Shown here: one piece after another, positions 2,723 to 31,508 of the stretch | Numbering within the stretch: position 1 is the stretch's first letter | Layout: each line of letters opens with the position of its first letter | DNA from: Candidatus Omnitrophota bacterium | Lineage (GTDB): Bacteria > Omnitrophota > Gorgyraeia > Zapsychrales > Fredricksoniimonadaceae | Length of the DNA stretch: 50,632 nt | Direction: 5' to 3' | Assembly: GCA_002753465.1 (NCBI GenBank) | Contig: PEAF01000009.1 | Span: 1 to 50,632, forward strand | The notes under the pieces: generated by a model | The model's database searches: none | What the model was told of the DNA's origin: nothing | The model's input: only the letters and a program-made list of their open reading frames with translations | Made by a program: the position numbers and the translations under genes

Positions 2723-2733
2723 AGGCTTAGTGT

Positions 2734-3771: not shown

Positions 3772-6363
3772 ATGAAGGTTGTATTTGTAACAAGTGATTG
3801 CGAGTCTTTGGGCATTGAATATTTATCGGCCGCCTTGAAGCAGGGAGGCCATGACTGTTCTTTGGCGTTTGATCCGAAGTTGTTTGATACGGAGCTTGTA
3901 TCCATTCCCTCCCTGAAGACGTTGTGCGCGTATAAAAAGTTACTCCTCCGTAAAATTACAGCTATCGACCCCGGGTTAATATGTTTCTCCGTTTGTTCGG
4001 ATAATTTCGCATGGGCCCTGGACCTGGCAACGGCGATCAAGGGGGTTATTGCGGCGCCCGTGATCTTCGGCGGGATACATCCTACGATCGTCCCGGAAGA
4101 AGTTATTCAGTACCCATCGATCGATTATGTTTGTGTGGGTGAGGGAGAGGCGGCGATCGTTGAATTGGTCGATGCGCTGGAAGGGAACAGGGATGTTGCC
4201 GGCATAGCGAATATATGGTCGAAGAAAGACGGGACAATATATTCAAATTCGCCGCGACGCCTGGTTGAGGACCTTGACAGTCTTCCGTTGGCAGATAAAG
4301 AGATATTTGCTAAAGAGTACCCCCTCTTTATGGGTGGGTACAAGATCATCACATCGCGTGGATGCCCGCACCTTTGCACTTATTGTGCAAGCCATCAATT
4401 ACGTGAGATATACCAGGGGCACGGCAAATTTATCAGGAGAAGGTCAGTCGCTAATGTGATCGACGAGCTTGTTGCTGCCAAACAAAAATATAATATGAAG
4501 ATGGTGCGGTTCTTTGATGACGTTTTTACGCAGGACAAGGCGTGGTTAAGAGGGTTCAGCGTGAGGTATAAAAAGGAAATAGCCCTGCCTTATTTCTGTT
4601 TTATCTCCCCGGATCATTGCGATGATGAAGTGATCGCGTTATTGGAAAACAGCGGCTGCGCGACGGTTTTTATGGGGTACGGCACTTTTTCGGAACAGAC
4701 GCGCCGGGAGGTTTTGAACAGGCACTATGATAATGAGAAGGTGGCGGGCCTGATTCGTTCTTTCAGAAGAACGAATGTTTATCTCATCGTCGATTTCATT
4801 CTTGGTTTGCCGGAGCAAACTGAAGATGAGGTGATAAGCATGGCGAAGTTCTTTAATTGCAACAGGCCTGATGTGCTCTCCGGTCTGTTTTTAAGGTATT
4901 ATCCTAAAACACACATAACCCGATTAGCCCAGGACCGCGGATTGTTAAGTGATGCCCAGGCATCGATGTTAAGCGCGGCGGGTTTCAATGAGCGGATAAT
5001 TATTGAAGAAAAGAGGTATGGTTCTTTAAAGAGAATTCAAACCCTGATCATATTCAGTAAATATTTACCCCGGTCAGTGGTAGAGTGGTTGGTCCGCAGC
5101 GGGGTTTATAAGGCCATTTTCAGTTTAAATCTGAATAATTTCTCGGTGATTTTTGATTCAGTGGTCCCGAAGTTCAGTCGCAAGCGGCGCATACATACGG
5201 ATACGGTATCGCCTTTTCAGTACATTCATTTTTACGGACACTACATTATGACAAAATTTAAATTCGACATCAGTTCGGCTGCAGCATCTTTCAAGCAAGC
5301 ATTCCGTTCACGGATCGACAAGATAATGCTGATCTATAAGCTGGGGCTCAGTCGGGCAAGCCTTAAGAAGTTGTTCATGACGGTGCGCTACCTGTTCCGG
5401 ACCAAGGTCCTTGGCCGGCAATGCCCCGGGGCTGTCATCATAGGCTTGACGTATAAATGCCAGTGCAAGTGCGTGCATTGTTCCGTATGCACCTATCCTT
5501 TGGTCCCGAAAGAAGAAATGGACGCTGCGCAGGTTAAGCTGCTGTTAAACGATATTGCGCGATGCGGCATTCCTAAAGTCAATTTCTTCGGCGGAGAGCC
5601 GTTGATCCTTAACACGTCGATCATTGAGTTGGTCAGGCACGGGTATCATTGCGGCCTGAGCGTGTCTATTGATACGAACGGTATCATGCTGGATGAGGGC
5701 ATGTTAAAGGATTTGAAGTCCGCCGGCATCAACAACATTAATGTGAGCATAGACAGTGCCGATAAAGATACCCATGACCGCCTGCGTGGCTACGCGGGTG
5801 TTTTTGAGAAGGCGATCGAAGGGCTGAAGTTGTGTGTAAGGGAAAATATCCCCTGTGTCCTTTCGACATACGCTTCCAAGAGGAATATTCACTCCGGGGA
5901 CCTTAAGAGAATAATAGAGCTCGGAAAACAGACAGGGGTAACCGCTGTCAAGATACTGTTCCCTTTAATGGCGGGTAAGTGGAAAGACAGTCAGTGCGAT
6001 GAATTGCTGGACCCGCAGGAGAAGCAGGTTGTTTATGATTTACTGGAGCCCGGCTTTGTTTATTTAGAAAGCCCTTTGTTCAGTGTTAAGGGCAGGAAAA
6101 AAGTATGTGAAGCGTTGAACAGGAAAATGCTCTATGTTTCTCCGTACGGTGATGTTCAACTGTGTTATGCGGTGCCGTTTTCCTTCGGGAATATCAGAAA
6201 AGAATCTTTTGAAGCCATTGTAAAGCGCATGTGGGCCAGCAAATTCTTTAATTCCATAGATAATAACTATGATTGCGTCATGAACAATCCGGTTTTCAGG
6301 CGCAATGAAGCCAAGCTTGAGGGTAAGGCGGAAACGCCGCCTGTCGACTGCGCCAAGATTTAG
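3772..6363 (+). CDS. Fused double radical SAM protein: B12-binding radical SAM plus second radical SAM domain
   Basis: At 863 residues this is far longer than its array paralogs (about 500). Residues 1-490 match the array family: cobalamin-type N-terminus with GGIHPTIVPEEVI and YVCVGEGE, cluster motif CPHLCTYC at 198-205, and a conserved C-terminal helical tail. A second complete radical SAM domain follows, with CQCKCVHC at 563-570 and GGEP about 45 residues later. Its C-terminal region carries a few further cysteines (KVCEAL, VQLCYA, NYDCVM) that may bind an auxiliary cluster. Residue 493 is a Met (ATG at 5248) beginning MTKFKF, which aligns with the start of the free-standing gene downstream (MKYKFK). 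This suggests fusion by loss of the stop between two adjacent genes. GAGGA lies about 11 bases before the ATG. A two-step reaction on one substrate is inferred. Confidence 0.88.
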   Translation: MKVVFVTSDCESLGIEYLSAALKQGGHDCSLAFDPKLFDTELVSIPSLKTLCAYKKLLLRKITAIDPGLICFSVCSDNFAWALDLATAIKGVIAAPVIFGGIHPTIVPEEVIQYPSIDYVCVGEGEAAIVELVDALEGNRDVAGIANIWSKKDGTIYSNSPRRLVEDLDSLPLADKEIFAKEYPLFMGGYKIITSRGCPHLCTYCASHQLREIYQGHGKFIRRRSVANVIDELVAAKQKYNMKMVRFFDDVFTQDKAWLRGFSVRYKKEIALPYFCFISPDHCDDEVIALLENSGCATVFMGYGTFSEQTRREVLNRHYDNEKVAGLIRSFRRTNVYLIVDFILGLPEQTEDEVISMAKFFNCNRPDVLSGLFLRYYPKTHITRLAQDRGLLSDAQASMLSAAGFNERIIIEEKRYGSLKRIQTLIIFSKYLPRSVVEWLVRSGVYKAIFSLNLNNFSVIFDSVVPKFSRKRRIHTDTVSPFQYIHFYGHYIMTKFKFDISSAAASFKQAFRSRIDKIMLIYKLGLSRASLKKLFMTVRYLFRTKVLGRQCPGAVIIGLTYKCQCKCVHCSVCTYPLVPKEEMDAAQVKLLLNDIARCGIPKVNFFGGEPLILNTSIIELVRHGYHCGLSVSIDTNGIMLDEGMLKDLKSAGINNINVSIDSADKDTHDRLRGYAGVFEKAIEGLKLCVRENIPCVLSTYASKRNIHSGDLKRIIELGKQTGVTAVKILFPLMAGKWKDSQCDELLDPQEKQVVYDLLEPGFVYLESPLFSVKGRKKVCEALNRKMLYVSPYGDVQLCYAVPFSFGNIRKESFEAIVKRMWASKFFNSIDNNYDCVMNNPVFRRNEAKLEGKAETPPVDCAKI

Positions 6364-6416
6364 CCTGTAGGTGGGGGGCTTTTTTGTCCTGTTAAGGCGG
6401 TTGAAAGGGTTTTGTT

Positions 6417-7442
6417 ATGAAGTATAAATTTAAGATGCTTTTGAATAAGGCGCTCGTGGCGCTGTTTATCCTCAAGATTCTCAACGGCAGGTCTTTTTTA
6501 AAGGTATTGAGATTCATTATTTCGAAATACTGCCTGGGGAAAAAATCTCCTGCCCTGGCTGTTCTTGCCCTGACGTATAAATGCCAGTGCCGCTGTGTGC
6601 ATTGTTCAGCCGGGAATTTTCGTACAAGCTCGGAAGAATTGACGGTCGATGCGTGGAAAAAGGTCATCGATGCTTTAGATGCACTGGGGGTTCCACGGAT
6701 ACATATCAGCGGCGGAGAGCCGACGTTGAAGCAGGGTGTCGATGACATCATAAGATATGCGGCTTCAAAGGGTATGGTGACATTCCTCGAAACAAACGGG
6801 TTTGCGCTGGATGAAAGCCTTGTGCTTAAGTTAAAGGCGGCCGGGGTGGCCAGTATTGATATCAGCCTGGACAGTACGGATGCGGGCACACATGACAAGT
6901 TGCGTTGTTTGGATAGATCCTTCGACAAAGCCATGCACGCCATTGATCTGTGCCGTAAGCATAAAATGGTTTATATGGTTTCATCTTATGCAACGAAGGA
7001 AAACATATTCTCCGGCGAACTGAAAAAGGTTATGGTGCTGGCGCAGCAGGTCAAGGCGAGTGCGATCAGGATCATGCCTCCGCAGCCATCCGGGCGCTGG
7101 ATGACCCATTCTCCCGAACAGTTAAAAGATGCGGATAAGAAATATTTCCGCCAGCAGTTCCCTGTCATGGCGGTTTTGGACCGGACAGATCTACCGCAAT
7201 GCCCCATTGCCAACAGGTATACGATCTTCATTGCGCCTGACGGAGAAATGCATCCCTGCCCGCATTTGCCGTTTTCTTTCGGCAATGTCCGGACGATGAG
7301 CATCGGCGCGGCGCTTGATAAGATGGCCAACGACAGCATGTTTAAAAAGAAAGCGCTCTGTTATATCAACGATGCCGGCTTTAGAAAACAGTATATAGAG
7401 CCCGTATTGGCGAAGAATGCAGAGTTGCCTGTCAAAATTTAA
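6417..7442 (+). CDS. Radical SAM protein with cysteine-bearing C-terminal extension, stand-alone copy of the fused domain
   Basis: This 341-residue protein has its cluster motif CQCRCVHC at residues 56-63 and then SGGEPTLK, the SAM-binding GGEP. The C-terminal part has cysteines in LPQCPIA, HPCPHLPF and ALCYIN, as in SPASM/Twitch-type auxiliary-cluster regions, although the full seven-cysteine SPASM pattern is not obvious. It parallels the C-terminal half of the preceding gene nearly throughout: LTYKCQC, SVDS/SLDST, and FSFGN near the end. The two are clear paralogs. AAAGGG lies 8 bases before the ATG. Candidate roles include peptide or small-molecule modification, as in PqqE/NirJ-like enzymes; nothing shows a peptide substrate here. 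Confidence 0.85.
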   Translation: MKYKFKMLLNKALVALFILKILNGRSFLKVLRFIISKYCLGKKSPALAVLALTYKCQCRCVHCSAGNFRTSSEELTVDAWKKVIDALDALGVPRIHISGGEPTLKQGVDDIIRYAASKGMVTFLETNGFALDESLVLKLKAAGVASIDISLDSTDAGTHDKLRCLDRSFDKAMHAIDLCRKHKMVYMVSSYATKENIFSGELKKVMVLAQQVKASAIRIMPPQPSGRWMTHSPEQLKDADKKYFRQQFPVMAVLDRTDLPQCPIANRYTIFIAPDGEMHPCPHLPFSFGNVRTMSIGAALDKMANDSMFKKKALCYINDAGFRKQYIEPVLAKNAELPVKI

Positions 7443-7455
7443 ACTGGGCAATTCC

Positions 7456-8979
7456 TTGAGTAAAATTCTTTTTATCAGCACACCCTACGAAAATCTCGGC
7501 ATCGAATATATGTCGGCGATCCTGAAATCTGCGCAGCATCAGGTTGAGCTGATCATCGACCCGTGTCTTTTTTTAAATGCGTATCAGCGGCATTCCTTCC
7601 TGTATAAGCTTTTTGATTCCCGTGCGAGAATATTGCAGCAAGTAAAGCAGCTTAAGCCGGACCTGATCTGTTTTTCCGTTATGACGGATACGTATCAGTG
7701 GGGGCTTGATTTAGCAGTGTGCATTAAGCGTGAAATGAATGTGGCCATTGTTTTCGGCGGGATACATCCTACGGCGGTGCCTGAGGTGGTCATTCAGGAG
7801 GGGGCGATCGATTATGTGTGCGTGGGTGAGGGCGAAGGCGCGATTTTGGATCTGGCCAATCGATGCCTGCGGCCGGATGATTGTCGGGATATCGCCAATA
7901 TCTGGGCTAAGAGTGGTGCGCAGATCATAAGGAACGGTCCGAGGGCAGTCCACCCCGACCTTGAAGCCTTGCCGTTTCCCGACAAGGAACTCTATTACGC
8001 TCAAAGCGGGATATATTCTAAAGAATATTTTATAATGACAAGCCGCGGGTGCCGTTATGCGTGTGCATTTTGTTGTAATCAAATTTATCTAAAAATGTAT
8101 GGGCCGGGATTCCTGCGCAGGCGCTCTGTGAGTCATGTGATCCGGGAATTATCGGAAAGCCGGAAGAAGCACGGCTATAAATTCGTTTGGTTCATGGATG
8201 ATAATTTTGCGCAGGACATCCATTGGCTCCGGGAGTTTTCCTCGGAGTACGGCCGGCGGATAGGGCTGCCGTTTTTCTGTTATGTTAATCCGAGGGATAT
8301 GACGGATGAGGTGGCGCGTTTATTGAAGGCGGCTAATTGCCATGAAGTGGCCATGGGGGTTCAAACCCTTAATGACAGTACGTGCCGACTGGTAACAAGG
8401 GATACGGACCGGATAAGTGTAAAAGCAGGCCTTGAAGTTTTAAGGGCGAATAATATCGTCAGCGCGACAGAGAATATTCTGGGCTTTCCCGGCGAGAATG
8501 AACAGGACATCGTGCAGCTGATCGAGTTTTATAATAATTCCAGGCCAGACCTGGTCATGTTCAGCTGGTTAAAGATATTTCCTGCAACCAGGATACTGAT
8601 GTTACTGCGCGAGCGCCATCAGATCACGGATCAGGGCATGGAAGACATTGTTCACGGCAAAGATAGATCACTGGCCCTCGGCGGGAATTTTGCGGACGAG
8701 CGGATGTTCCGGAGCGCGGCGTGCCTGCTAGTTTTGGTGCCTTTCTTGCCTAAAAGGCTCGTGAGCTTCCTGTTAAAGGGCGGGGTCCATAAAGGGTTTG
8801 GCTTTTTAAACCCTATGTTTCTATTACGGGTTCTTAGGCTGTATAAGACTACCAGGCTAGCCATGCTGATAACCGGAAGACGTACATATGATGCCGGGGC
8901 AAAGATCAGCCTGCGGATCCAGAAGTATTTTATTCTGAAGAAGATCAAAGGGTTTCTAAAAGGCCGTCATACCTCATGA
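7456..8979 (+). CDS. B12-binding radical SAM protein (array member 2)
   Basis: This is an array-type protein of 507 residues. The cobalamin-type N-terminal half carries GGIHPTAVPEVVI and YVCVGEGEG. The radical SAM motif CRYACAFC is at 199-206 and is followed by a further cysteine (CCNQ). A conserved C-terminal tail (LPKRLVSFLLKGGVH) ends the protein. The start is uncertain. The frame extends to an ATG at 7417, overlapping the previous gene by 26 bases, but array paralogs begin directly at the M-K-I-x-F strand, which fits TTG at 7456; neither has a strong ribosome site. The 3' end overlaps the next start as ATGA, implying translational coupling to the FemAB-like gene. Member of a putative multi-step B12-radical SAM pathway. 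Confidence 0.87.
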   Translation: MSKILFISTPYENLGIEYMSAILKSAQHQVELIIDPCLFLNAYQRHSFLYKLFDSRARILQQVKQLKPDLICFSVMTDTYQWGLDLAVCIKREMNVAIVFGGIHPTAVPEVVIQEGAIDYVCVGEGEGAILDLANRCLRPDDCRDIANIWAKSGAQIIRNGPRAVHPDLEALPFPDKELYYAQSGIYSKEYFIMTSRGCRYACAFCCNQIYLKMYGPGFLRRRSVSHVIRELSESRKKHGYKFVWFMDDNFAQDIHWLREFSSEYGRRIGLPFFCYVNPRDMTDEVARLLKAANCHEVAMGVQTLNDSTCRLVTRDTDRISVKAGLEVLRANNIVSATENILGFPGENEQDIVQLIEFYNNSRPDLVMFSWLKIFPATRILMLLRERHQITDQGMEDIVHGKDRSLALGGNFADERMFRSAACLLVLVPFLPKRLVSFLLKGGVHKGFGFLNPMFLLRVLRLYKTTRLAMLITGRRTYDAGAKISLRIQKYFILKKIKGFLKGRHTS

Positions 8980-10064
8980 TCAGGATCGATCTTCTTACCC
9001 AAGATAATGAAAATGACTGGGAATCTTTTGTCGGCACCTATGTCGATAAAGAATATGCCTATTCATTAAAATGGCGAAGGCTTTTGAAGGATGTGTTTGC
9101 TTATGATGATCTATATTATTTGATCTGGAATGACCATGACCTAGCAGGGTTGTTACCTGTTTTTATGGTGAAGTCAAAGATCTTAAAGGACAGGCTGATC
9201 TCGATCCCGTTTGCCGACATGGGAGGATTTTATTTTGCGCCCTTCGTGAGTGACGCCGTAAAACTTGAAGCATACCACAAGGTCAAAGAGCGGCTGGGGC
9301 ATGATCTGGGCATGGCCGCTACGGCACCGTTTCTTTTTGAGGTCAGGGGTCCGCATCAGTCATCCAATGATTTTTTGATCAGAGACTGTCATTTCCTGAA
9401 AACAAGTCCGTATGTAAAGTTCATCATCAAATTAGATGTCACCTGGGCGGCTATTGAAGACGGGTATCACCGAAGTGTCAGGCGTATCCTGCAAAAGCCC
9501 TCCGATGAACTGGTGATAGATGCCGGCGGGGAAGAATGTTTGCCGGGCGTGTATGCTATCTATGTTCAGGAGATGAAAAGGTTGGGAAGTTTTCCGCTGC
9601 CGTTGACGTTCTTCGCAGGGCTTTTCCGTGAGCTGGGAAGAGACGGCGGTTTTACAGTTTTCACGGCCTCATACGCGGGCAAGATCATAGGCGCCATGAC
9701 GTTGATCGCATTTAAAGATACCATTTATGCTGACCTGATCATGAGTGATGTTAAGTTCAATTATCTTTTTCCTAAGCATTATCTTTATGCCGAAAGCATT
9801 AAATTTGCCTGGCAGTCCAAGCAGTATAAATATTATGATTTCAGCAGGACAAGGCGGGTGGGCGGGGTTTTTGAACAGGCTTTAATATGGGGGGGCAAGG
9901 TCGAAGATATTTGCTATTATTACCCCACTCAGAGGGACCGGGAGAGGTGTTTTCTTGACCCTTCCCAAAATGAGTTCGCTTTAATGGGAAAGCTTATCAA
10001 ACAATGTCCGGCAAGTATTTTAAAATATGCGGGGGGGCTCTTAAGACGCCAGGCTGGGAAATGA
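8976..10064 (+). CDS. FemAB/GNAT-like acyl- or aminoacyl-transferase
   Basis: This 362-residue protein has the FemAB-type doubled GNAT layout. The N-terminal half contains YAYSLKWRRLLKDVF and PFADMGG. The C-terminal half contains the typical GKIIGAMTLIAF strand, the YDFSRT motif and a final WGG. FemAB proteins transfer aminoacyl or acyl groups to lipid- or sugar-linked amines, and similar ones accompany exopolysaccharide (PEP-CTERM/exosortase) clusters. No signal peptide or membrane segment is seen, so it likely acts on the cytoplasmic face. It is coupled by 4-base ATGA overlaps both upstream (B12-radical SAM) and downstream (CapK-like ligase). The ligase neighbour suggests activation and then transfer of an acid. 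Substrate unknown. Confidence 0.75.
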   Translation: MIRIDLLTQDNENDWESFVGTYVDKEYAYSLKWRRLLKDVFAYDDLYYLIWNDHDLAGLLPVFMVKSKILKDRLISIPFADMGGFYFAPFVSDAVKLEAYHKVKERLGHDLGMAATAPFLFEVRGPHQSSNDFLIRDCHFLKTSPYVKFIIKLDVTWAAIEDGYHRSVRRILQKPSDELVIDAGGEECLPGVYAIYVQEMKRLGSFPLPLTFFAGLFRELGRDGGFTVFTASYAGKIIGAMTLIAFKDTIYADLIMSDVKFNYLFPKHYLYAESIKFAWQSKQYKYYDFSRTRRVGGVFEQALIWGGKVEDICYYYPTQRDRERCFLDPSQNEFALMGKLIKQCPASILKYAGGLLRRQAGK

Positions 10065-11443
10065 TGAATAATAAAGAAAAACTTTTATGGTTGTTGGACA
10101 AGACTACTCCATTAAAAACATGGAGTTTTCTGGAAGATTTGCAAAGAACGGAAAAGTTATCCGCCAGCGCTATCAGTGATCTGCAGTGGGCCAGGCTTCA
10201 AGAGCTTCTCGAATTCGCCTACCGTAAAACAGCGTTTTACAGGCAAAGATTCGACAGGATCGGCCTTCGTCCCAGTGACCTGAAGTGTAGAGAGGATTTT
10301 GCGAAGATCCCGCTACTTACCCGGGAAGAGTTGGGCCAACATCGCGCTCAGATCAAATCCGGGGAGAGCGATTTCTTTATACGCAGTTCTGGCAGTACGG
10401 GCCGATCACCTTCACAGACACACGTAGATTTCAAGGCCGCCAGCCAGAAGTACGCCGTTTATCTGCGGCATCTTTTGAGGAGCGGGTGGGATTTTGATAC
10501 GAAGATCATCCATTTTCTGCCTTCCGTTTACGAAAAAAAGATAGTAGACCGGGAGAATGGGATCAAACAATTATTATCGACATTTGTCCAAAACGAGATC
10601 GCCCATGCCTTCTTCACTTCCCGGGAAGTGCTCTTTTATGATGGTCTCAGCCCTATCATCGAGAAGGAAAAATTAAAATATTATTTTAAGAAAATAAACG
10701 CCTTCAAAAATGTCATAATAATGGGCCGGGGGTCATTTCTGGGCCTTCTCGCTCATAATTTGCGGATGTCAGGGTGGGCAATTGTAAAGCCAAGGGCGAT
10801 CGTTAACATCGGGGAGTTATTGCCGGAGCCATTGGCTCAGAGGATCGCTGCTGTTTTTGATGCACCGGTCTATAACATTTATGGGAGCGCTGAACTGAGC
10901 TATATCGCGGGAAGTTGTCCCCAAAAAAGCCTGTTACATCTTAACGAAGAAACGCACTATGTGGAGACAGTGAAAGATGGGGATGGAAGCTCAATTTCAG
11001 GTAAATGGGGAAACATTGTCGTTACGGACCTGTTCAATCATTCTATGCCGCTTATCCGGTACCAGGTTGGGGATGTGGGCCATATCAGGCAAGACGGCTG
11101 TGGTTGTGGCGGCTCACGGTTGTTGGAGGTGGGGGGGCGACAAGAAGCTCTTATAAAACTTAACGGGCGTGATCCGATCAGCGAAAAAGAGATCTGCGAT
11201 GACTTACTGGACTTCGAGAATATTTGGCAGTTCAAATTAGAGTTTCGAGGTAATGGTGCCTATAAGCTAGAGATCGTAGGTGACAATGTTCATTGTCATC
11301 AAGAAAGCATCATGGGAAGATTGAAGGCTATGGGATTTGACAAAGTCAGTGTCAATTTTACAGAAAGGCTTGATGATCACGTAGATAAGATGAGGTATGT
11401 CAAGGTTCAGGATATGTCTTCAGCTGTAAATGTTTCAAGGTAA
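10061..11443 (+). CDS. CapK/PaaK-like adenylate-forming ligase (phenylacetate-CoA ligase family)
   Basis: This 460-residue protein carries the AMP-binding P-loop SSGSTGRSP near residue 109, YNIYGSAEL (the aromatic-E motif), and LIRYQVGDVG with the hinge-preceding aspartate. It ends in a small C-terminal domain. These are the marks of the PaaK/CapK branch of the ANL superfamily, which activates carboxylic acids as acyl-adenylates. I chose ATG 10061 because it makes a 4-base ATGA overlap with the FemAB-like gene. A longer in-frame start at 10004 would overlap that gene by 61 bases and adds a sequence without family character. GCGCGGS near residue 345 is a cysteine-glycine stretch, perhaps structural. 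It probably supplies the activated acid used by the transferase next door (inference). Confidence 0.83.
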   Translation: MMNNKEKLLWLLDKTTPLKTWSFLEDLQRTEKLSASAISDLQWARLQELLEFAYRKTAFYRQRFDRIGLRPSDLKCREDFAKIPLLTREELGQHRAQIKSGESDFFIRSSGSTGRSPSQTHVDFKAASQKYAVYLRHLLRSGWDFDTKIIHFLPSVYEKKIVDRENGIKQLLSTFVQNEIAHAFFTSREVLFYDGLSPIIEKEKLKYYFKKINAFKNVIIMGRGSFLGLLAHNLRMSGWAIVKPRAIVNIGELLPEPLAQRIAAVFDAPVYNIYGSAELSYIAGSCPQKSLLHLNEETHYVETVKDGDGSSISGKWGNIVVTDLFNHSMPLIRYQVGDVGHIRQDGCGCGGSRLLEVGGRQEALIKLNGRDPISEKEICDDLLDFENIWQFKLEFRGNGAYKLEIVGDNVHCHQESIMGRLKAMGFDKVSVNFTERLDDHVDKMRYVKVQDMSSAVNVSR

Positions 11444-11501
11444 GGTGTGTTGGTGCAAGGATGCTTTTGGGGGAAGTTTTAATACGAAATAAATAATTAT
11501 A

Positions 11502-12947: not shown

Positions 12948-12953
12948 CACAAA

Positions 12954-14471: not shown

Positions 14472-14582
14472 GGGCTTTGATAGATGGACAGAGTCGCATC
14501 CATAGAGCCTGTGGCGTTAAATATTGACAAGCATTTATAAAAGAATTTTGAGATGATCAAAAGTGAAAGGCCTCGAAAAGCA

Positions 14583-16091: not shown

Positions 16092-16095
16092 AACC

Positions 16096-17616: not shown

Positions 17617-17618
17617 AC

Positions 17619-20689: not shown

Positions 20690-20702
20690 GCGGGGATCAC
20701 AC

Positions 20703-22256: not shown

Positions 22257-22264
22257 GGTCAAAT

Positions 22265-23638: not shown

Positions 23639-23654
23639 GGTGCGCCCCTAATCC

Positions 23655-25154
23655 ATGCGAATAGTCTTTGTGCATTTCAATTTTGAATCACTGGCGATCG
23701 AGTGCCTGTCCGCTTCCTTAATCCGGGCAGGACATCAAACCTCGCTTGTTTTCCGTGTCGCAGGCCGACCGGAGATGGAGGGGCGCAGTTCGCCGGATTT
23801 CCTGCGGAGCATAGCCTCTGATGTTGCCTCCATAAAGCCCGGCCTGATCGCCTTTTCTGTACTCAGTGACCAGTATCCGCTCATATCAGATGTGGCTAAA
23901 ACAATACGGGCGATGGCAAAAGATGTCCCCATTATTCTCGGTGGGATCCATCCTACATCGGTCCCGGATGTTGTCATTCGAGAGGATTTTGTGGATTACC
24001 TGTGTGTTGGTGATGGCGAGGAAGCTATTGTTGAATTAGCCCATGCGCTTGAAGCCGGAAGCGACACAGCCAGCATTCAGAACATCTGGTCTAAGGACAG
24101 GGGCATTGTCATAAGGAATCCACCAAGGCATTTAAATTGTGATCTTGATAGCTTTCCTTTGCCGGATAAAGACATGTTTTTTCGTGTATCAAGGGGAATG
24201 ATCGTCGATTATGCGACATTTTCATCGCGCGGATGTTTGTACAGCTGTTCGTATTGTTATAACAGCATGCTCAAAAGTGCCTATGCGGGCAGAGGCGCCT
24301 TCTACCGTCGCAGAAGTGTGGGCCACCTCATTGAGGAGCTTGTGGCGGCTAAACAGAAGTACGGGATCCGGTCCGTTTTTTTTATCGATGATATATTTTG
24401 CGGCGATAAGGATTTCCTGAATGAATTCGTATCCAAGTATAAAGAATTCGTACGGCTGCCATTTTCCTGCCTTGCATTTCCTCATCCGGAAATTACAAAT
24501 GAGTATACGTTGGGGTTGCTCAAGGATGCGGGCTGTGTTTATGTTTCCCTGGGCGTGCAGTCTTTGAATGCGCGGATCAGGAACGAGATTTTAAAGCGCC
24601 CTGGAAGCAATGATGATATTCATCAGGCGCTGCTTGCTTTGAAAAAAAGCGGGATCTTTACCAACGTTGAATTGATGGTAGGGCTGCCCACGCAGAGCAG
24701 AGAAGATATTATCGAATGCATCAGATTCTTTAATGAAAATCGGCCAGATGCCCTGGTGGTTTACTGGCTCAGGCATTATCCGGGCACAGAAATCGCCCGG
24801 TATTTGAAGGCTGCTTCCGGCGACGCGGTCTCTGATGCGGTGCAGGCCTATGCCCCGTTTTCGGAAGGGGGAAGCACCTATGATGCCGAGATCGCACAGC
24901 TTGTTAATCTTGTGCTACTGAGCAATATTCTCAATAAATACATTGTTGATTTTTGCCTGAAAGAAAGGATCTACAGGTTCTTTCCGGGTTGTAATCCTGT
25001 GTTGATGCGCTTTAATACGGTCTTTGGGCTTTTGCGCCGCCATTTATTCTTCAGCCGGTTGGGGTATACTCTTATTTTGAGAAATATCGTCGTGACGTGC
25101 CGGTGGCGGATAGGACATTTCTTCTCGAGGCACGTCACTGACCGACGGGAGTAG
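23655..25154 (+). CDS. B12-binding radical SAM protein (array member 9)
   Basis: This is a 499-residue array member. The first strand is MRIVFVHFNFESLAIE (most paralogs have SLGIE). It has LGGIHPTSVPDVVI and YLCVGDGEE, so GEGE is changed to GDGE. The cluster motif CLYSCSYC is at 194-201, about five residues earlier than in paralogs because the N-terminal domain is slightly shorter. YNSML follows, and LGVQSLNA is in the barrel. It ends with a basic tail. It starts 16 bases after a Tes-like gene and is followed, after 146 bases, by the second Tes-like gene. Confidence 0.87.
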   Translation: MRIVFVHFNFESLAIECLSASLIRAGHQTSLVFRVAGRPEMEGRSSPDFLRSIASDVASIKPGLIAFSVLSDQYPLISDVAKTIRAMAKDVPIILGGIHPTSVPDVVIREDFVDYLCVGDGEEAIVELAHALEAGSDTASIQNIWSKDRGIVIRNPPRHLNCDLDSFPLPDKDMFFRVSRGMIVDYATFSSRGCLYSCSYCYNSMLKSAYAGRGAFYRRRSVGHLIEELVAAKQKYGIRSVFFIDDIFCGDKDFLNEFVSKYKEFVRLPFSCLAFPHPEITNEYTLGLLKDAGCVYVSLGVQSLNARIRNEILKRPGSNDDIHQALLALKKSGIFTNVELMVGLPTQSREDIIECIRFFNENRPDALVVYWLRHYPGTEIARYLKAASGDAVSDAVQAYAPFSEGGSTYDAEIAQLVNLVLLSNILNKYIVDFCLKERIYRFFPGCNPVLMRFNTVFGLLRRHLFFSRLGYTLILRNIVVTCRWRIGHFFSRHVTDRRE

Positions 25155-25300: not shown

Positions 25301-26638
25301 ATGGCTGATCGGCAAGATACGGAGAGGGTCATTCGTCGAACCCGGACCATATGCACGGTCTGTAAGGATATGGTTGAAGCGGTTGTCTTGTCCTGCGCCG
25401 GTAAAGTTTTCCTGGAAAGGAAATGCCCGGTGCACGGGCAGGAGCGGTCATTGCTGTGCGGTGATGCCGATTATTATGCGGCCGTCGATGACCTGTATTT
25501 CAATGTTCTTACCGGCCGTCGATCGATCAAGAGCTACTTGCTTTATTTGACCGGGAAGTGCGATCTTGATTGTCCGATCTGCTATTTGAGCGACCGCAGC
25601 GCCAAGGAGGACATGAGCCTCCGTGAGATCGAAGACATCTTGCGCCGGATGAGGGGGGCGCAGTGCATTGTTTATGCGGCTGAACCCACCTGCCGGGAGG
25701 ATCTGCCCGAGGTCATCCGGTTGATCCGCCGTTATCAGGGGACGGTCAAGCTCTTTACGAATGGGGTGCGGCTGGCTGATAAGGCATACCTGCGGGTCTT
25801 GCGTGACGCGGGGCTGGGGCAGGTCGTTCTTCAATTCGATGGCTTCAAGCGGGAAACGTATGTGGCGCTGCGGGGAGAGGACCTGCTGGATGCCAAATTG
25901 CGCACCCTCGATAATCTCAGGGAAACAGGGACTTCGACGTTCTTATCGTGCGTGCTTGCTAAAGGACTTAATGAGGATGAGGTCGAGTCGATGATCCGTT
26001 ACGCGGCAGGGCAGGATTTTATCGAATGCGTTGCGTTCACAGCGCTAACGGTTGTTGGCGGGGCAGAAACGCGTTTGAAGAATCTGGTTTTGCTTCCAGA
26101 CGAATCTATTGATCGATTATGCCATCACAGCCAGGGGAAGATCGACCGCGCTTACTTCAGGCTTTGCCAGAAGATCCTGCACATATCAACAGCCTTGAAT
26201 TATGAACGGGTCTGTTTTTATACACAGATGATCATACTTTTCAGGACAAAGGACGGGTACGTGACATTAAGCGAGCTGGTGGATACGGCTTGTTTGGAGC
26301 GGTTGTTGGACCGGTATGCTGTTTGGGTCAAAGAGAAGGTTTGGGCAGCCAGGCTGCGGCTTGCTTGCGGGGTGCTGGCCTTGTTCGCGTTCAATCGGGG
26401 GTACCGAAAATTATTGGCAGCCATGTTGCGGACGTTGCTGGCGCGTCGTTTTAAGACAAGCATGTCTCCCCAGGCGCTGCGCCCGTTCGTGGTGAGTTTT
26501 TATCGGGGATGTGATCACGGCAATAACGATGATTTGGTCATGCGGACATGCATGTGGCGGCTTGTTTTTAAGGAGAAGGGGACGGTTTCTACCGATAAAA
26601 CAATGACCGAATGTCTGGGGTTGGCTGACCGTCATTGA
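25301..26638 (+). CDS. Radical SAM enzyme of the MJ0619/tetraether-synthase-like type (copy 2)
   Basis: This 445-residue protein is colinear with copy 1: CTVC at 18-21, CPVHG near 41-45, radical SAM motif CDLDCPIC at 87-94, and the SAM-binding segment read as AAEPTCRED, so both glycines of GGEP are replaced. Shared stretches such as LFTNGVRLADKAYL and LQFDGF show recent common ancestry with copy 1. CPVHG in place of CPEHG and loss of the GGEP glycines suggest the two copies have separated in function. It may act on membrane lipid chains, by analogy with archaeal Tes; other radical chemistry is equally possible. It is followed directly by a GT-C-like membrane protein. Confidence 0.77.
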   Translation: MADRQDTERVIRRTRTICTVCKDMVEAVVLSCAGKVFLERKCPVHGQERSLLCGDADYYAAVDDLYFNVLTGRRSIKSYLLYLTGKCDLDCPICYLSDRSAKEDMSLREIEDILRRMRGAQCIVYAAEPTCREDLPEVIRLIRRYQGTVKLFTNGVRLADKAYLRVLRDAGLGQVVLQFDGFKRETYVALRGEDLLDAKLRTLDNLRETGTSTFLSCVLAKGLNEDEVESMIRYAAGQDFIECVAFTALTVVGGAETRLKNLVLLPDESIDRLCHHSQGKIDRAYFRLCQKILHISTALNYERVCFYTQMIILFRTKDGYVTLSELVDTACLERLLDRYAVWVKEKVWAARLRLACGVLALFAFNRGYRKLLAAMLRTLLARRFKTSMSPQALRPFVVSFYRGCDHGNNDDLVMRTCMWRLVFKEKGTVSTDKTMTECLGLADRH

Positions 26639-26697
26639 TCCCGCGAATAGTTTTCTTCCGGGGCATTGGTCTTGGCGATGGATTGGAGGTGTTTAAA

Positions 26698-28341
26698 ATG
26701 GCTACGCCTGCAGGGAGAATTAAAGTGAAAGACTCGTGGATCAGAAAGACGCTTTGGATCGTTATTCTTTTTGCTGTTGTGATCTATGCCCAATGCGTTT
26801 GCAGGGGTTTTGATTTTCAGCCATTTTATTCCGTATATACAGATGCAACAAATATGTACGTTTTCTATCATGGTGCGGACCCGTCTTATTTTGTGAAAGA
26901 CCTGATCACAATCGGTCATGAAAAGAAGATCGCCTGGATGATGCCGTCGGCGTCACTGCTGGTGGTGTATTCGTTCTTGTTGAAGTTTCTGATGTTGCCG
27001 ACCGCCATTAAGGTGGTTTCGTTTTTTTTATGTGTTTCGTCGGTGGTATTCATATATTGGCTGGCCCGCGCGCTGTTCTCCTTTAGTTATGCGTTTTTCT
27101 TTTCCGGGTTGTTTTTAATGTATTTTCTGTCGATGGATTCTTTTTTTGGGGGTATGGGCAGGGGGTTCGGGGTTCTTTGTACGGTGTCTTTTTTATTTTT
27201 CATCTTCAAGGAAAGGCTGCTTCTCGCGACAGCAAGTATTTTATTGTCGCTCATGTTTTACAGAACCATCTCTGTTTCTTTGGTGATGACGCTGTTGCTC
27301 GTATTTATTTCTATGAAATACCGTGAGAACTTCTGGAAGATCGTAGTGGTTTGCTGTGTTGCTGCTATTGCCGGGGAAGTTTTTCTTCTACACAGTGTGC
27401 GGTCGCTGCCGTTCTTTACATGGCTTCAAAACTTCCAAACGTATAAATTTTATCTCAGGGAATCTCTTGGGTGTGGCGGCAGCGACCCATTGTCCGTACT
27501 GAAGAACTTTGTTTTCAATCTTAATGAGCACAGCGACCTTTATCGTTATTTGAGCTATGCTTTTATGTCGGCTGCGGTCATTATTATGCTCATGATTAAA
27601 GATTGGAGCAATATACCGAAGGCGGCGTGGTTGATGTTGTTGGGGGCAACGATCAGTTTTATTCTCATATTTCCGCTTCATCCTACGACAGCGTCGAGAC
27701 AGTTTGTTTTTACGATGCCTTTATTCCTGGTCATGCTGGTCGGATGTAATGTCTATAGGGTCTTGGGTCATCGAAAGGTTTTGCCGGAAGTGCTGTTGGG
27801 CATTCTTGTGTTTGGATTTATGGTGGCACATCCTTTGTTCAACGATACAAACTCCTGGAGGGCATATGAGCGTATTTATGCGTATTTCGGAGCCGTGCCG
27901 AAGGATGCCATGATCGCCGGGCATGCCAGAAGCCGGTTGTTAAGAACGATCCCGTTCTTTACGAAAAGACAAATATTTTATTCTGAGAAAATGCGTGATG
28001 CGTTGTTGATGTATTATTCTCCCCAATTTATAAGAGAAAGGCGCTTGATCAATCTGAACGCGTTTTATGCTGATTCGTTGGAGGCGGTGAAAGATTTTAT
28101 TATAAAGAACAAGATTGATTATTTGATCGTTGAAAGCAAGTATTACGATGAAGGGTACCGGAATGAATTAGCGCTGCAAATGAATGCCGACGAGTCACAA
28201 AGCTTATTATATATCAAAGACAGGCTAAGGCTTAGAAAATGTGCCTTACTGAAGTTCGCCGAGGCTAATTATGTGTTGCGGCAGGAGGTTGAGGGTAATG
28301 TTATCTATTTGCTCAAGGCAGAAAGTATTGTGAGCAATTAA
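26698..28341 (+). CDS. Polytopic membrane protein, GT-C glycosyltransferase-like
   Basis: This 547-residue protein has a first membrane helix at about residues 17-33. A short acidic-aromatic loop follows (YTDATNMYVFYHGADPSYF), then some ten hydrophobic helices up to about residue 385, then a soluble C-terminal part with FGAVPKDAMIAGH and IDYLIVESKYY. This is the layout of GT-C or O-mannosyl-type transferases that use lipid-linked sugar on the outer face of the membrane, but no catalytic motif can be proven. ATG 26698 is preferred because GGAGGT lies 7 bases upstream; the frame is open to TTG 26635. The gene at 32487 has the same plan and a matching soluble tail, so the two are probably paralogs. 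Confidence 0.68.
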   Translation: MATPAGRIKVKDSWIRKTLWIVILFAVVIYAQCVCRGFDFQPFYSVYTDATNMYVFYHGADPSYFVKDLITIGHEKKIAWMMPSASLLVVYSFLLKFLMLPTAIKVVSFFLCVSSVVFIYWLARALFSFSYAFFFSGLFLMYFLSMDSFFGGMGRGFGVLCTVSFLFFIFKERLLLATASILLSLMFYRTISVSLVMTLLLVFISMKYRENFWKIVVVCCVAAIAGEVFLLHSVRSLPFFTWLQNFQTYKFYLRESLGCGGSDPLSVLKNFVFNLNEHSDLYRYLSYAFMSAAVIIMLMIKDWSNIPKAAWLMLLGATISFILIFPLHPTTASRQFVFTMPLFLVMLVGCNVYRVLGHRKVLPEVLLGILVFGFMVAHPLFNDTNSWRAYERIYAYFGAVPKDAMIAGHARSRLLRTIPFFTKRQIFYSEKMRDALLMYYSPQFIRERRLINLNAFYADSLEAVKDFIIKNKIDYLIVESKYYDEGYRNELALQMNADESQSLLYIKDRLRLRKCALLKFAEANYVLRQEVEGNVIYLLKAESIVSN

Positions 28342-28370
28342 ATGCGGGCACACTGAAAGCCGGTACAAGG

Positions 28371-28481
28371 ATGAGAGTTGCATTTCTATGCCCCGGGTGT
28401 GAGAGTCTGGGTGTCGCGCATTTCCCGTACTATTACCTCAGCATGACGCCGGAGCCCGGTTCTTTCGGGGCCTTATCGTAG
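28371..28481 (+). pseudogene. Remnant of the 5' end of another B12-radical SAM array gene
   Basis: This is a 36-codon ORF starting at ATG, with AAGG just upstream. Its first residues, MRVAFLCPGCESLGVA, match the N-terminus of array member 10 (MRVAFVCPGYENLGIE) almost position for position. After about 18 residues the similarity stops and a TAG ends the frame. No continuation of the radical SAM gene is found before the SGNH gene at 28516. The best reading is the leftover of a deleted array copy whose start survived. Functional use as a leader peptide is less likely but possible. Confidence 0.6.
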
Positions 28482-28515
28482 TCTGGCGTTTCACAGACGG
28501 TTTAATTTCAAGGCA

Positions 28516-29952
28516 ATGGCCATGGCAGATCCATCACAATATAAAAATAATCTGTTGTCACCGCGGACATCGGGGGCGCAGATATTTTTGTTGATGGGTT
28601 TTGGCATAGTGTGCAGCTTGATTATAATTGAAATAAGTTTACGCTTGTGCGGGGGCGCGTTTGCCGCATTACAAGCATGCAGAAATTATCTTTCTGTTAA
28701 ACAAAGTGGTTCTTACCGGATTTTGTGTTTGGGTGAGTCCACTACGGCCAACCAATATCCTGCGTTGTTAGAAGCAATGCTTAACCAGCGTAAGATCGGA
28801 ATAAAATTCAGTGTGATTGACGGGGGTATTTCAGGGATTCAAACGCCGGATATAGTAGACAATCTGGAATCTACGCTTAATTTATATCACCCGGACATGG
28901 TTATTACCATGATGGGGATCAATGATTTTGGATCATATATGCCGCATGAGGATCCTTCTGATGCCAAGGCGATGCGTTTTTGGAAATCTTTTAGGGTTTA
29001 TAGATTGATCCGACTGCTGGCGCTGCACATGGCGACCAGGTGGCAGGCGTTGAAGCTGGATGGGGTTAGCCGAAGAACGTCCAGTGGGCTCGGGGCACAA
29101 GGGCGCCCCCAGTGCGTGGGAGGCAATTTCGATAATGCCAGGGCCTATGTTCAGTTGGCAAGGTGTTACCGTCAAAATGGCAGTTTTTCTGAAGCTGAGG
29201 CTTTATTAAGGAGGGCCATTGAGCTTAATCCGGATATAAATAGTACTTATGTTGAGCTGGGTGAGTTATATCGAGTCCAGAAAAAGGATTCAGAATTTGA
29301 GGCGTTTTTAAGAAAAGCCATAGAGCTCGACGCCAATAATTATGCAGCCTATGTGTATTTGGCATGGCTTTGTCAAGAAAACAGGAAGACCGCTGATGCT
29401 GAAACAATATTAAGGAAAGTCATCGCACGTGCCCCGAAGAATGTTATAGCCTATATTCATCTCGGAGAAATGTATCTTTCTCAGGGCAGGTTCCTAGAGG
29501 CCGAATTATTGTTCAAGCAAGCCATAGAGCTAGCGCCGGCGGATTACAGGGCATATGGTTCTTTGAAAGTGTTATATACGGCGATGGGGAATCTAAGCCT
29601 TGCAAACGATTACGATATGAAGGCGCAGAAAGCATTTGATTATCCGTTGATGACAACGGGTAATTATCATAAGCTGAAGGTCATGCTCGATAAAAGAAGG
29701 ATAAAATATGTTTGCATGCAGTATCCCGTGCGCAACATTTCCTCGTTAAACAAGATCTTTGAGGGTCACGCAGGGGGTATTGTATTCATTGATAATGAGC
29801 GGCTGTTTAAAGATGTGCTTCAGAAGGGTGACTATAAAGACTATTTTATTGATCTGTTCGGAGGCGATTTTGGGCATTGTACAAAAAAGGGCAACGCGCT
29901 GTTGGCCGCCCATATGGCCGATGTGATATCGAATGAGGTTTTTCATCAATGA
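28516..29952 (+). CDS. SGNH/GDSL-family hydrolase with internal TPR block, membrane-anchored
   Basis: This 478-residue protein has one N-terminal hydrophobic helix (about residues 20-42). It then shows the SGNH blocks: GEST with Ser75 as probable nucleophile, G-I-N-D with Asn136, and near the end the catalytic pair D451-x-x-H454 (GDFGH). Between Asn136 and the D-H pair, residues about 207-365 form four to five TPR-like repeats (AIELNPD, AIELDAN, AIELAPA). The TPR block is therefore inserted inside the hydrolase fold and not appended to it. SGNH proteins of this kind add or remove acetyl groups on glycans or lipids outside the membrane. ATG 28516 or 28522 can start it, with AAGG upstream. Confidence 0.8.
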   Translation: MAMADPSQYKNNLLSPRTSGAQIFLLMGFGIVCSLIIIEISLRLCGGAFAALQACRNYLSVKQSGSYRILCLGESTTANQYPALLEAMLNQRKIGIKFSVIDGGISGIQTPDIVDNLESTLNLYHPDMVITMMGINDFGSYMPHEDPSDAKAMRFWKSFRVYRLIRLLALHMATRWQALKLDGVSRRTSSGLGAQGRPQCVGGNFDNARAYVQLARCYRQNGSFSEAEALLRRAIELNPDINSTYVELGELYRVQKKDSEFEAFLRKAIELDANNYAAYVYLAWLCQENRKTADAETILRKVIARAPKNVIAYIHLGEMYLSQGRFLEAELLFKQAIELAPADYRAYGSLKVLYTAMGNLSLANDYDMKAQKAFDYPLMTTGNYHKLKVMLDKRRIKYVCMQYPVRNISSLNKIFEGHAGGIVFIDNERLFKDVLQKGDYKDYFIDLFGGDFGHCTKKGNALLAAHMADVISNEVFHQ

Positions 29953-30020
29953 TCATGCCGGCCCCATGCGGGGTTTAAGCGCGGGTGGTTGAGCTTGCGG
30001 TGTTTGAAGGGGGGGTCGTG

Positions 30021-31508
30021 ATGAGGGTCGCCTTTGTTTGCCCCGGGTATGAGAATCTGGGGATCGAATATCTTTCTGCTGTTTTACGTCAGGATGGAGT
30101 TGAGACACGGCTCTTTCTTGATCCTATCTTATTTGCCGAAAGCAACTTCATTGATCATCCCGGTCTGGCGGGTTTGTCGTCTTACAAGGCGCGCCTGTTA
30201 AGGGAGATCAGGCGCTTTGATCCTCAATTAATTTGTTTTTCCGTTATCAGTGATAATTATCGTTGGGCGTGCCAGTGGGCCGCAGACCTTAGGGCTGTGG
30301 CACAGGGCAGGATCGTTTTTGGCGGCATTCATCCAACTTCTTCGCCGGAGGTTGTCATACGTTCTTCGTGCGTTGATTATATATGCATCGGCGAAGGAGA
30401 ATATCCCCTGCGTGATCTTGTCCGCTCTTTGGCCAGCGGGGGCGATGGTTCAGGCATTCTTAATATTTGGTCCAAGAAAGACGATGAGGTACTCCGCACC
30501 GGTATTCGTCCGCCGATAGAGGACCTTGATGCCCTGCCGTTTCCCGATAAAGGCCTTTTTTATCATGCCCATCCTGTTTTTAAGGGCGGGTATTTAGCCA
30601 TGACATCCAGGGGCTGTTCATTTTCCTGCAAATATTGCTGCAATAATGTCTATCACCGGCTTTACGGGAAAAGTGCGGCCCGGATACGGCGACGGAGCGT
30701 TGGTCATGTGATCGCGGAACTGGAGCGCGCGAAAAAAGAATATGCGCCGCGTCACATCCTGTTTGCCGACGATCTTTTTAACAGCGATGTTAAATGGCTG
30801 CAGGCTTTCCTTCAGGAATACCGCCAGCGTATAGGGCTCCCTTTTGCGTGTTATGTTTTTCCGGATCTGATCGATGAGCCGGTGGCCCAGGCGCTTCAAG
30901 ATGCCGGTTGTTTCAAGGTCCAGATGGGCTTGCAGGTTTTTGATCAGGAGAAGCGCAAAAACGTCCTTGGACGTGTTTCATCCCAGGACAAGATCGCCGC
31001 GGCAATAGGATCGTTGCGCAGAAGGCATATTTATGTGGTGTGCGATACGATCTTCGGTTTTCCTGATGAGGTTGAGGAAGAGTTGGTTGGGCTGGCGAGG
31101 TTTTATGCCGAGCATCCGCCGGATCATTGTGAAAGTTTCTGGCTGAGGTATTATCCTGGTACAGAAATAACGCAGTGGGCATTTGAGAACGGATATATCG
31201 ATCAGAGTAAGAAGCGCAGGATCGAAGAAGGCCTAGAGAGTTTTGGCATGGTCAAGAATCCTGAGCATCCTGGCACGGGGTCCTATGCCAGGCAAATCAT
31301 GCTGTTACTTAGCCTGTATCCGTTCATGCCTAAAAAGTTAAAGTTATGGGTGCTGGATAGGAAGATTTACCGGCATATGCCCCTGCTGCCGAGCATCGTG
31401 GTGTATGTGCTGGTCCGCCTCGTCCATCATCCCCGATTTGATTTTAATACGGAGCGGACCTGGCGGCGGTACCGGTATTTTTTGACCCGGTTGATATTTC
31501 AGCGGTGA
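30021..31508 (+). CDS. B12-binding radical SAM protein (array member 10)
   Basis: This is a 495-residue array member. The N-terminal half has GGIHPTSSPEVVI and YICIGEGEY. The cluster motif CSFSCKYC is at 199-206, followed by an extra cysteine (CNN), and MGLQVFDQ is in the barrel. ATG 30021 (MRVAFVCPGYENLG) aligns with paralogs, with AGGGGGGG about 5 bases upstream; the frame also opens at GTG 29985 without family similarity. It is separated from the other array members by the GT-C and SGNH genes. The remnant at 28371 matches its first 16 residues best, so these two are probably sister copies. Confidence 0.87.
   Translation: MRVAFVCPGYENLGIEYLSAVLRQDGVETRLFLDPILFAESNFIDHPGLAGLSSYKARLLREIRRFDPQLICFSVISDNYRWACQWAADLRAVAQGRIVFGGIHPTSSPEVVIRSSCVDYICIGEGEYPLRDLVRSLASGGDGSGILNIWSKKDDEVLRTGIRPPIEDLDALPFPDKGLFYHAHPVFKGGYLAMTSRGCSFSCKYCCNNVYHRLYGKSAARIRRRSVGHVIAELERAKKEYAPRHILFADDLFNSDVKWLQAFLQEYRQRIGLPFACYVFPDLIDEPVAQALQDAGCFKVQMGLQVFDQEKRKNVLGRVSSQDKIAAAIGSLRRRHIYVVCDTIFGFPDEVEEELVGLARFYAEHPPDHCESFWLRYYPGTEITQWAFENGYIDQSKKRRIEEGLESFGMVKNPEHPGTGSYARQIMLLLSLYPFMPKKLKLWVLDRKIYRHMPLLPSIVVYVLVRLVHHPRFDFNTERTWRRYRYFLTRLIFQR

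Follow-up and report, generated by a model that had tools for sequence, protein, structure and literature searches.

Why would an uncultured bacterium maintain ten strongly diverged B12-type radical SAM enzymes in a single row of genes, and could these enzymes act together on one molecule? We addressed these questions for a stretch of DNA of 50,632 nucleotides (hereinafter, the window) from a Candidatus Omnitrophota bacterium (assembly GCA_002753465.1, contig PEAF01000009.1, positions 1 to 50,632), in which a preliminary description, made from the sequence alone, had noted ten B12-binding radical SAM paralogs between positions 3772 and 31508 and interpreted them as an assembly line within one transcription unit. 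The genes of this region are listed below; the ten paralogs are denoted R1 to R10, and G-numbers denote other genomes that were searched.

1400..3741 (+), FAD oxidoreductase (1400-2722) and HpnA-like SDR (2734-3741), upstream of the array; both recur in related clusters
3772..6363 (+), R1, B12-type radical SAM (residues 1-505) fused to a second radical SAM/SPASM enzyme; a fused 857-aa copy is also present in G223
6417..7442 (+), radical SAM/SPASM protein, identified by Pfam; a relative of 363 bits lies beside the R2 ortholog in G004
7417..8979 (+), R2, B12-type radical SAM, orthologous to G004 copy b (support 100/99)
8976..10064 (+), FemAB-like GNAT (XrtA-type), TIGR03019 below the cut-off; also next to the R2 ortholog in G004
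10004..11443 (+), PaaK/CapK-like adenylate-forming ligase, NCBIfam hits below the cut-off; part of the conserved synteny
11502..12947 (+), B12-type radical SAM of a different family, not one of the ten (18-24% identity to them)
12954..14471 (+), R3, B12-type radical SAM (AlphaFold model, pLDDT 95.5)
14583..16091 (+), R4, B12-type radical SAM (an ATG at 14553 is also possible)
16096..17616 (+), R5, B12-type radical SAM
17619..19148 (+), R6, B12-type radical SAM (ORF open from 17514; start chosen by alignment)
19145..20689 (+), R7, B12-type radical SAM
20703..22256 (+), R8, B12-type radical SAM
22253..23638 (+), Tes-like 1, homolog of tetraether synthase/GDGT-MAS with a rubredoxin-type CX2CX20CX2H domain
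23655..25154 (+), R9, B12-type radical SAM
25301..26638 (+), Tes-like 2, sister of Tes-like 1 in the tree (100/100)
26635..28341 (+), large hydrophobic membrane protein without a Pfam match, homologous to the one at 32439
28371..28480 (+), remnant of an eleventh B12-type radical SAM copy (first ~18 codons, then unrelated sequence and a stop)
28516..29952 (+), GDSL-like hydrolase domain plus TPR repeats, recurrent in related clusters
30021..31508 (+), R10, B12-type radical SAM, orthologous to single copies in G004, G005 and G025 (100/100)
31527..32411 (+), XrtA-type polysaccharide deacetylase (DUF3473)
32439..34109 (+), large hydrophobic membrane protein, paralog of the one at 26635
34164..34937 (+), family 2 glycosyltransferase

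The array itself is real, as originally observed. All ten ORFs are intact and lie on the + strand, and each contains the Pfam B12-binding (PF02310) and Radical_SAM (PF04055) domains above the curated cut-offs, with the B12-type domain preceding the radical SAM core. All ten possess the CX3CX2C motif (residues 194-202; 212 in R2, which has an N-terminal extension), the signature GGxHP[ST]xxP[ED] (PD in R7 and R9), and VGEGE or a variant thereof (VGESE, VGECE, VGDGE, IGEGE). The pairwise identity among the ten is 31-44%, compared to 17-24% to the three other HpnJ/BchE-type radical SAM proteins in the window. In the whole bin, the ten best hits to one copy are exactly these ten, whereas the eleventh, on another contig, is clearly weaker. 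A profile built from the ten splits the homologs into a family above about 370 bits and other B12-type radical SAM proteins below about 350 bits, with a pair at 348 bits. NCBIfam yielded many hits, but none of those read for the array genes reaches its cut-off, so no existing name was adopted.

Several features refine this picture. Only R3-R8 form an uninterrupted run; the other copies alternate with FemAB, ligase, SPASM, Tes-like, membrane protein and GDSL genes. About half of the gaps are at most 20 bases, but three are 111-174 bp, so that a single transcript is plausible although not shown. Promoter counts were at chance, and terminator-like counts were above the shuffle mean but lay mostly inside coding sequence, so that neither settles transcription. 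The preliminary description overlooked the remnant of an eleventh copy at 28371, which shows 74% DNA identity to the start of R10 over 54 nt and a BLOSUM score of 65, against at most 27 for any non-family stretch in six frames; its pattern match is not expected by chance either.

It also overlooked the two genes inside the row (22253 and 25301) that are full-length homologs of tetraether synthase (Tes/GDGT-MAS), the archaeal lipid-stapling enzyme. A profile comparison with GDGT-MAS (7tol) gave E=9e-71 over nearly the full length, and a Foldseek search gave E=2e-29 with a TM score of 0.75, the next best match being at 9e-10. The radical SAM CX3CX2C motif is present, and the spacing of the rubredoxin ligands, CX2CX20CX2H, is identical (PMC9433317). 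However, these proteins contain no conserved Cys in the region of the N-terminal auxiliary [4Fe-4S] cluster of Tes (C73, C77, C80, His), and another residue occupies the position of the labile Met439. The invariant Cys409 of the Tes-like proteins might be taken for a replacement of Met439, but this reading was rejected because, in the alignment, Cys409 lies three residues further on. Tes-like genes occur in all 7 multi-copy genomes and in 3 of 33 other searched genomes (Fisher p=6e-6), mostly inside the arrays.

How did the array evolve? In related Omnitrophota, there is a second kind of array, with 5-8 copies plus 3-5 Tes-like genes, in which every position is its own orthologous group across genomes, for both enzyme families, which is what one enzyme per step predicts. 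The synonymous/non-synonymous ratios that can be computed show constraint (dN/dS about 0.06-0.12 for positions p1-p3 of these sister arrays). The array in the window was built independently. R4, R5, R7, R8 and R9 form a local expansion, and because R4-R9 have no close orthologs elsewhere, the estimates of constraint do not extend to these copies individually. A single expansion of all ten copies was tested and rejected, the ten not being one clade (AU p=2.7e-45). R2 and R10, in contrast, have single-copy orthologs in a syntenic surface-glycan-type cluster of relatives.

The assembly-line interpretation is thus partly supported. It gains real support from the position-by-position orthology and constraint in the sister arrays, and the cofactor residues are intact in all ten copies. 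Scattering of the same genes among unrelated pathways, which had been named in advance as a refuting result, was not seen for R2 and R10. Three points are not supported as stated: that the ten represent one expansion of a single gene, which is rejected by the tree test; that the row is one transcription unit, which is unproven; and that all copies act on one repetitive molecule, which remains an inference because no substrate was identified.

Our preferred, still tentative, explanation is that this is an expanded radical SAM cassette placed inside a surface-glycoconjugate gene cluster, a line of radical C-alkylation and C-C coupling acting on one lipid or lipid-linked surface glycan. In this view, each B12-type copy would most likely use SAM and cobalamin to alkylate (usually methylate) one particular unactivated carbon of a shared precursor, whereas the Tes-like partners would most likely form sp3 C-C bonds, or otherwise activate CH groups, on the same precursor. 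That precursor would most likely be a long-chain lipid, or the lipid anchor of a surface glycan, which the products of the neighboring glycosyltransferase, deacetylase, GDSL and membrane protein genes build on. A shared product is likely, and a lipid target is favored, albeit with less than even confidence. The analysis directly establishes the ten intact paralogs, the homology of the Tes-like proteins, their co-occurrence with the arrays, and the position-conserved orthologs in the sister arrays, whereas the binding and use of cobalamin, methylation as the reaction, the shared product and its lipid nature are all inferred.

Several lines of evidence are compatible with this explanation. The best PDB matches of the R3 model are the cobalamin-dependent radical SAM enzymes TsrM, MgmA, CysS, OxsB and TokK, plus AprD4. 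The ten proteins lack a DXHXXG motif, as expected for base-off, not His-on, binding of cobalamin (PMC13331322). The bin has a cobalamin riboswitch, as do seven of seven relatives tested, although an Rfam search of the window itself found nothing, so that no riboswitch is called there. CobS was found in 2 of 8 genomes, suggesting that cobalamin is probably scavenged by most, with the caveat that the bin containing the window is 64% complete. The C-terminal tails of ~95 residues are strongly basic (family mean +11, compared to +7 for other B12-type radical SAM proteins and +2.4 for neighbors), which fits binding to an anionic membrane surface, and there is synteny with glycan genes. However, AprD4, which is among the close structural matches, is a diol dehydratase acting on an aminoglycoside, so this architecture fixes neither methylation nor a lipid substrate, and the absence of the auxiliary cluster and of Met439 sets the Tes-like proteins apart from Tes.

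The principal alternative, possible but in our view unlikely, is that the array decorates the sugars of a surface polysaccharide, each copy performing C-methylation, dehydration, epimerization or deoxygenation on one monosaccharide or cyclitol of a complex glycan. The neighboring glycosyltransferases, DUF3473 deacetylase, FemAB-like and CapK-like genes and SDR are compatible with this possibility; the sister arrays carry DegT aminotransferases, which fit sugar chemistry at least as well as the lipid reading, along with an O-antigen-ligase-like protein and family 2 glycosyltransferases; AprD4 is the best PDB sequence match (E=1e-19); and single copies occur in DPANN and Patescibacteria bins. 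This scenario does not explain, however, why every multi-copy array carries GDGT-MAS-like enzymes, whose characterized relative has hydrophobic lipid pockets (PMC9433317), nor does it explain the strongly basic tails. Less likely still is lineage-specific amplification without an ordered pathway, whereby the copies are redundant or differ only in regulation, and the row is a by-product of tandem duplication. The local group of R4, R5, R7, R8 and R9, the turnover evidenced by the decayed eleventh copy, and the variation of the copy number from 0 to 10 among relatives are consistent with such amplification, but the copies are all intact despite being only 31-44% identical, and each position in the sister arrays is a long-standing ortholog group under constraint.

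The least likely of these alternatives is modification of a ribosomally made peptide or a large protein, as in the case of the B12-dependent radical SAM C-methyltransferases of RiPP clusters. Known enzymes of this type methylate peptides and proteins, MgmA is a close structural match, and in G022, an ORF of at least 4,201 aa follows one copy. Nevertheless, no large protein recurs next to the arrays, and no RiPP model reaches its cut-off; the intergenic gaps in the window, inspected without a systematic small-ORF search, show no evident precursor gene. Finally, a more far-reaching version of the lipid scenario is not excluded but appears unlikely, namely, that a dedicated one-enzyme-per-carbon radical line in Omnitrophota makes a multiply methyl-branched, C-C cross-linked, possibly membrane-spanning surface lipid by a route separate from archaeal GDGT and from known bacterial Mss-type lipids, and that such lines arose at least twice, each time by pairing an expansion of B12-type radical SAM enzymes with a Tes-like expansion.

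If the array makes one product, it would show radical SAM chemistry organized as an ordered series of regiospecific steps and would offer a set of paralogs for learning how these enzymes choose a carbon, with the position-conserved sister arrays providing ready-made tests. The Tes-like partners bear on which bacteria make membrane-spanning or branched tetraether-type lipids, whose producers are an open problem (PMC8941075, PMC11868695). No paper that we found describes such an array: literature searches for Omnitrophota or Omnitrophica with radical SAM, which did not cover subscription papers, gave only general papers.

Comparison with known systems helps to place the array. With the XrtA/PEP-CTERM-type exopolysaccharide clusters, the neighborhood shares the DUF3473 deacetylase and similarity to FemAB-like and PrsT-like TPR proteins, but all scores are below the cut-offs, no exosortase was found in the genes scanned, and radical SAM arrays are not known to be part of those clusters. 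The HpnJ/BchE and AprD4-type enzymes have the same domain order and are recurrent top hits, but all are far below the equivalog cut-offs, and there are no hopanoid, bacteriochlorophyll or aminoglycoside genes nearby. The ladderane-associated B12/radical SAM family (TIGR04072) is the best NCBIfam hit of R1, and the anammox lipid clusters (PMC2649909) likewise combine several radical SAM genes in a putative lipid cluster, but the score is at most 131 bits against a cut-off of 360, and there are no ketosynthase or ACP genes among those scanned here. The class 1 cobalamin-dependent radical SAM enzymes (OxsB, TsrM, TokK, CysS; PMC13331322) share the Rossmann B12-type N-terminal domain and the radical SAM core and are the best structural matches of R3; the basic helical C-terminal tail differs, and none of these enzymes is known to occur as ten diverged copies in one locus. 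Tes/GDGT-MAS (MJ0619; PDB 7TOL/7TOM; PMC9433317, PMC8941075) shares with the two interleaved genes, in addition to full-length homology and the motifs described above, the C-terminal helices and Cys residues, but the identity is about 24%, the scores of 160 and 136 bits are below the NCBIfam Tes equivalog cut-off of 450 bits (NF045702), and the Tes-like proteins are present as multiple paralogs beside arrays of B12-type radical SAM enzymes in bacteria.

The window is a whole contig (C102 of genome G000), and the bin to which it belongs comprises 2.18 Mb in 150 contigs and is 64% complete. This bin shares a genus with G004, and was compared with related bins that include, among Candidatus Omnitrophota, G039 (contig C14, 102,197 bases, JAKQKX010000082.1), G053 (C5, 106,163 bases, MHHG01000005.1), G022 (C30, CAIVRE010000030.1), G004 (C49, CAIUQE010000049.1), G190 (C5, JAGLQQ010000102.1) and G252 (C118, JAHJCZ010000174.1). 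The features of the window that are considered below are the following (where a single position is given, it is the one by which the gene is designated):

2, HpnJ/BchE-type radical SAM protein, not one of the ten copies
3772, R1, B12-type radical SAM copy
7417, R2, B12-type radical SAM copy
11502, HpnJ/BchE-type radical SAM protein, not one of the ten copies
12954, R3, B12-type radical SAM copy
14583, R4, B12-type radical SAM copy
16096, R5, B12-type radical SAM copy
17619, R6, B12-type radical SAM copy
19145, R7, B12-type radical SAM copy
20703, R8, B12-type radical SAM copy
22253, Tes-like gene
23655, R9, B12-type radical SAM copy
25301, Tes-like gene
gap before 28516, start of an eleventh copy
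30021, R10, B12-type radical SAM copy
37005-39031, cysN/cysD-like sulfate-activation genes on the opposite strand, directly after the strand run of the array and followed by a sulfatase-family gene
41778, HpnJ/BchE-type radical SAM protein, not one of the ten copies
45577-50631, long repetitive coiled-coil-like ORF of at least 1685 aa that runs off the contig end

Each of the ten copies contains the PF02310 and PF04055 domains, with scores above the cut-off, and intact CX3CX2C and GGxHP motifs. The copies are 31-44% identical to one another but only 17-24% identical to the three other HpnJ/BchE-type radical SAM proteins of the window. Within the bin, they are the ten best matches to R4, and the next match, on another contig, scores clearly lower. 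A profile built from the ten copies delineates a family that falls mostly above 370 bits, with a borderline pair at 348 bits. The preliminary description, which reported an array of ten such paralogs, is borne out by our analysis and understates the case.

Two features of the array escaped that description. The genes at 22253 and 25301 encode the HMPTM zinc-ribbon and Radical_SAM domains and, together with their homologs from related arrays (alignment A2), match GDGT-MAS/Tes (PDB 7TOL) at E=9e-71 over residues 11-417 of the profile. The structural model of the 22253 product (pLDDT 85.5) matches the same protein at E=2e-29 with a TM of 0.75, whereas the next best match is at 9e-10. The rubredoxin ligands retain the published spacing, C9X2C12X20C33X2H36 (PMC9433317), but the N-terminal auxiliary cluster and the Met439 position are not kept. 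Furthermore, the gap before 28516 contains MRVAFLCPGCESLGVAHF, the start of an eleventh copy, which shows 74% DNA identity to R10 over 54 nt and a score of 65, against at most 27 for any non-family stretch in all six frames, a result that was confirmed by a pattern search.

Among 384 genomes drawn from the phylum, 42 hold the family at E <= 1e-110, when only the top three candidates per genome were scored. Fuller scoring revealed arrays in G039 (7 copies), G053 (6), G252 (8 array copies on two contigs), G190 (5), G022 (5) and G304 (fragments), with one or two copies in most of the other genomes; the ten copies in the window are the most that we found. The family is also represented in bins of Elusimicrobiota, Myxococcota, Thermodesulfobacteriota, Patescibacteria and DPANN, although bin contamination remains possible in these cases. 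The same caveat applies to the single copies (two in the case of L016) in the loci L002, L014, L016, L021, L023 and L073 from Woesearchaeota, Nanoarchaeia, Aenigmatarchaeota and Patescibacteria bins. In an Elusimicrobia bin (locus L003, 468-7679), five tandem B12-type radical SAM genes of a different family lie on the - strand near a single member of the present family, suggesting that such rows may be a wider habit of these phyla.

In a maximum-likelihood tree of 73 rows, the arrays of the relatives (hereafter, sister or type-II arrays) form one clade (support values 97/91) that includes no window copy. Within this clade, each position is an orthologous group: p1 in six genomes (100/100), p2 in four (100/99), p3 in six (100/99), p5 (100/100) and p6 in seven (91/84). 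Of the window copies, R2 pairs with G004 (100/99) and R10 groups with G004, G005 and G025 (100/100), whereas R4, R5, R7, R8 and R9 group together (97/94), with R3 and R1 nearby and R6 elsewhere. The branches are long, so that the individual placements of R6 and R7 are uncertain (R7 sat deep in a quicker tree). The monophyly of all ten copies is rejected (AU p=2.7e-45). In the tree of the Tes-like proteins, the window pair is one clade (100/100), and the sister arrays again show position-wise groups (two at 100/100). Thus, the cassette of the window and the type-II cassette were expanded separately in both families. This is the strongest evidence for a step-by-step division of labour, but it is direct for type II and holds only by analogy for the window.

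Across 40 selected genomes, strong Tes-like matches were detected in all seven multi-copy genomes (G000, G022, G039, G053, G190, G252 and G304) and in 3 of the 33 others (Fisher p=6e-6; because the genomes were partly chosen for holding the family and share ancestry, this p-value is only indicative). One of these three, G187, has a small array. In the other two, G046 (locus L137, contig C150) and G300 (locus L139, contig C35), the Tes-like gene lies among several B12-type radical SAM genes of other families, with IorAB-type (POR/TPP) genes, a peptidase U32 gene and an FAD oxidoreductase, a third type of cluster that is shared by two families.

The window shares with G004 and G223 a framework of genes for an SDR, an FAD oxidoreductase, FemAB, a PaaK-like ligase, a DUF3473 deacetylase, large membrane proteins, GDSL genes and two B12-type radical SAM copies, although not every gene is present in each. 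In G223 (locus L121, 9280-11850), an independent 857-aa open frame holds a family member, like the R1 fusion, and is followed by FemAB and PaaK-like genes. The block from R3 to R9, along with the two Tes-like genes, is additional to this framework. The GC content is lower across R2-R5 (43.6-46.8% in 2-kb windows from 8 to 16 kb) than downstream of the array (51-53%), which is compatible with a different origin but does not prove it. The sister arrays encode SPASM radical SAM proteins, DegT aminotransferases, a MiaB-like protein, GT2 and an O-antigen-ligase-like protein. In one of the relatives (locus L102, 7396-19998, contig C24 of G022), an ORF of at least 4,201 aa, open at the end of the locus, directly follows a type-II B12-type radical SAM copy; the 1,000-aa piece of this ORF that was scanned has no Pfam match.

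The best matches of the R3 structural model are Cbl-dependent radical SAM enzymes and AprD4, and a cobalamin riboswitch was identified in the bin as well as in all seven relatives tested. The C-terminal tails of about 95 residues carry an average charge of +11, compared to +7 in other B12-type radical SAM proteins and +2.4 in the neighbouring proteins, which fits membrane binding but does not prove it. Enzymes of this class usually methylate unactivated carbons, but AprD4 and OxsB show other outcomes. We therefore consider it likely that the array has a shared product, whereas a lipid or lipid-linked target is only a tentative, if favoured, possibility; a glycan target appears somewhat less likely, and a peptide is unlikely. 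The intact copies, the homology of the two interleaved genes to Tes, the co-occurrence of the two families and the position-wise orthology in the sister arrays are direct observations, whereas the use of cobalamin, the reaction, the shared product and its target, as well as the division of labour within the window itself, are inferred.

The assembly-line interpretation put forward in the preliminary description, whereby each copy would act on a different position of one large or repetitive molecule, is supported only in part. No paper that we found, within the open-access literature that was searched, describes such arrays. The enzymes themselves belong to known superfamilies, and what is new is the paired, position-conserved array.
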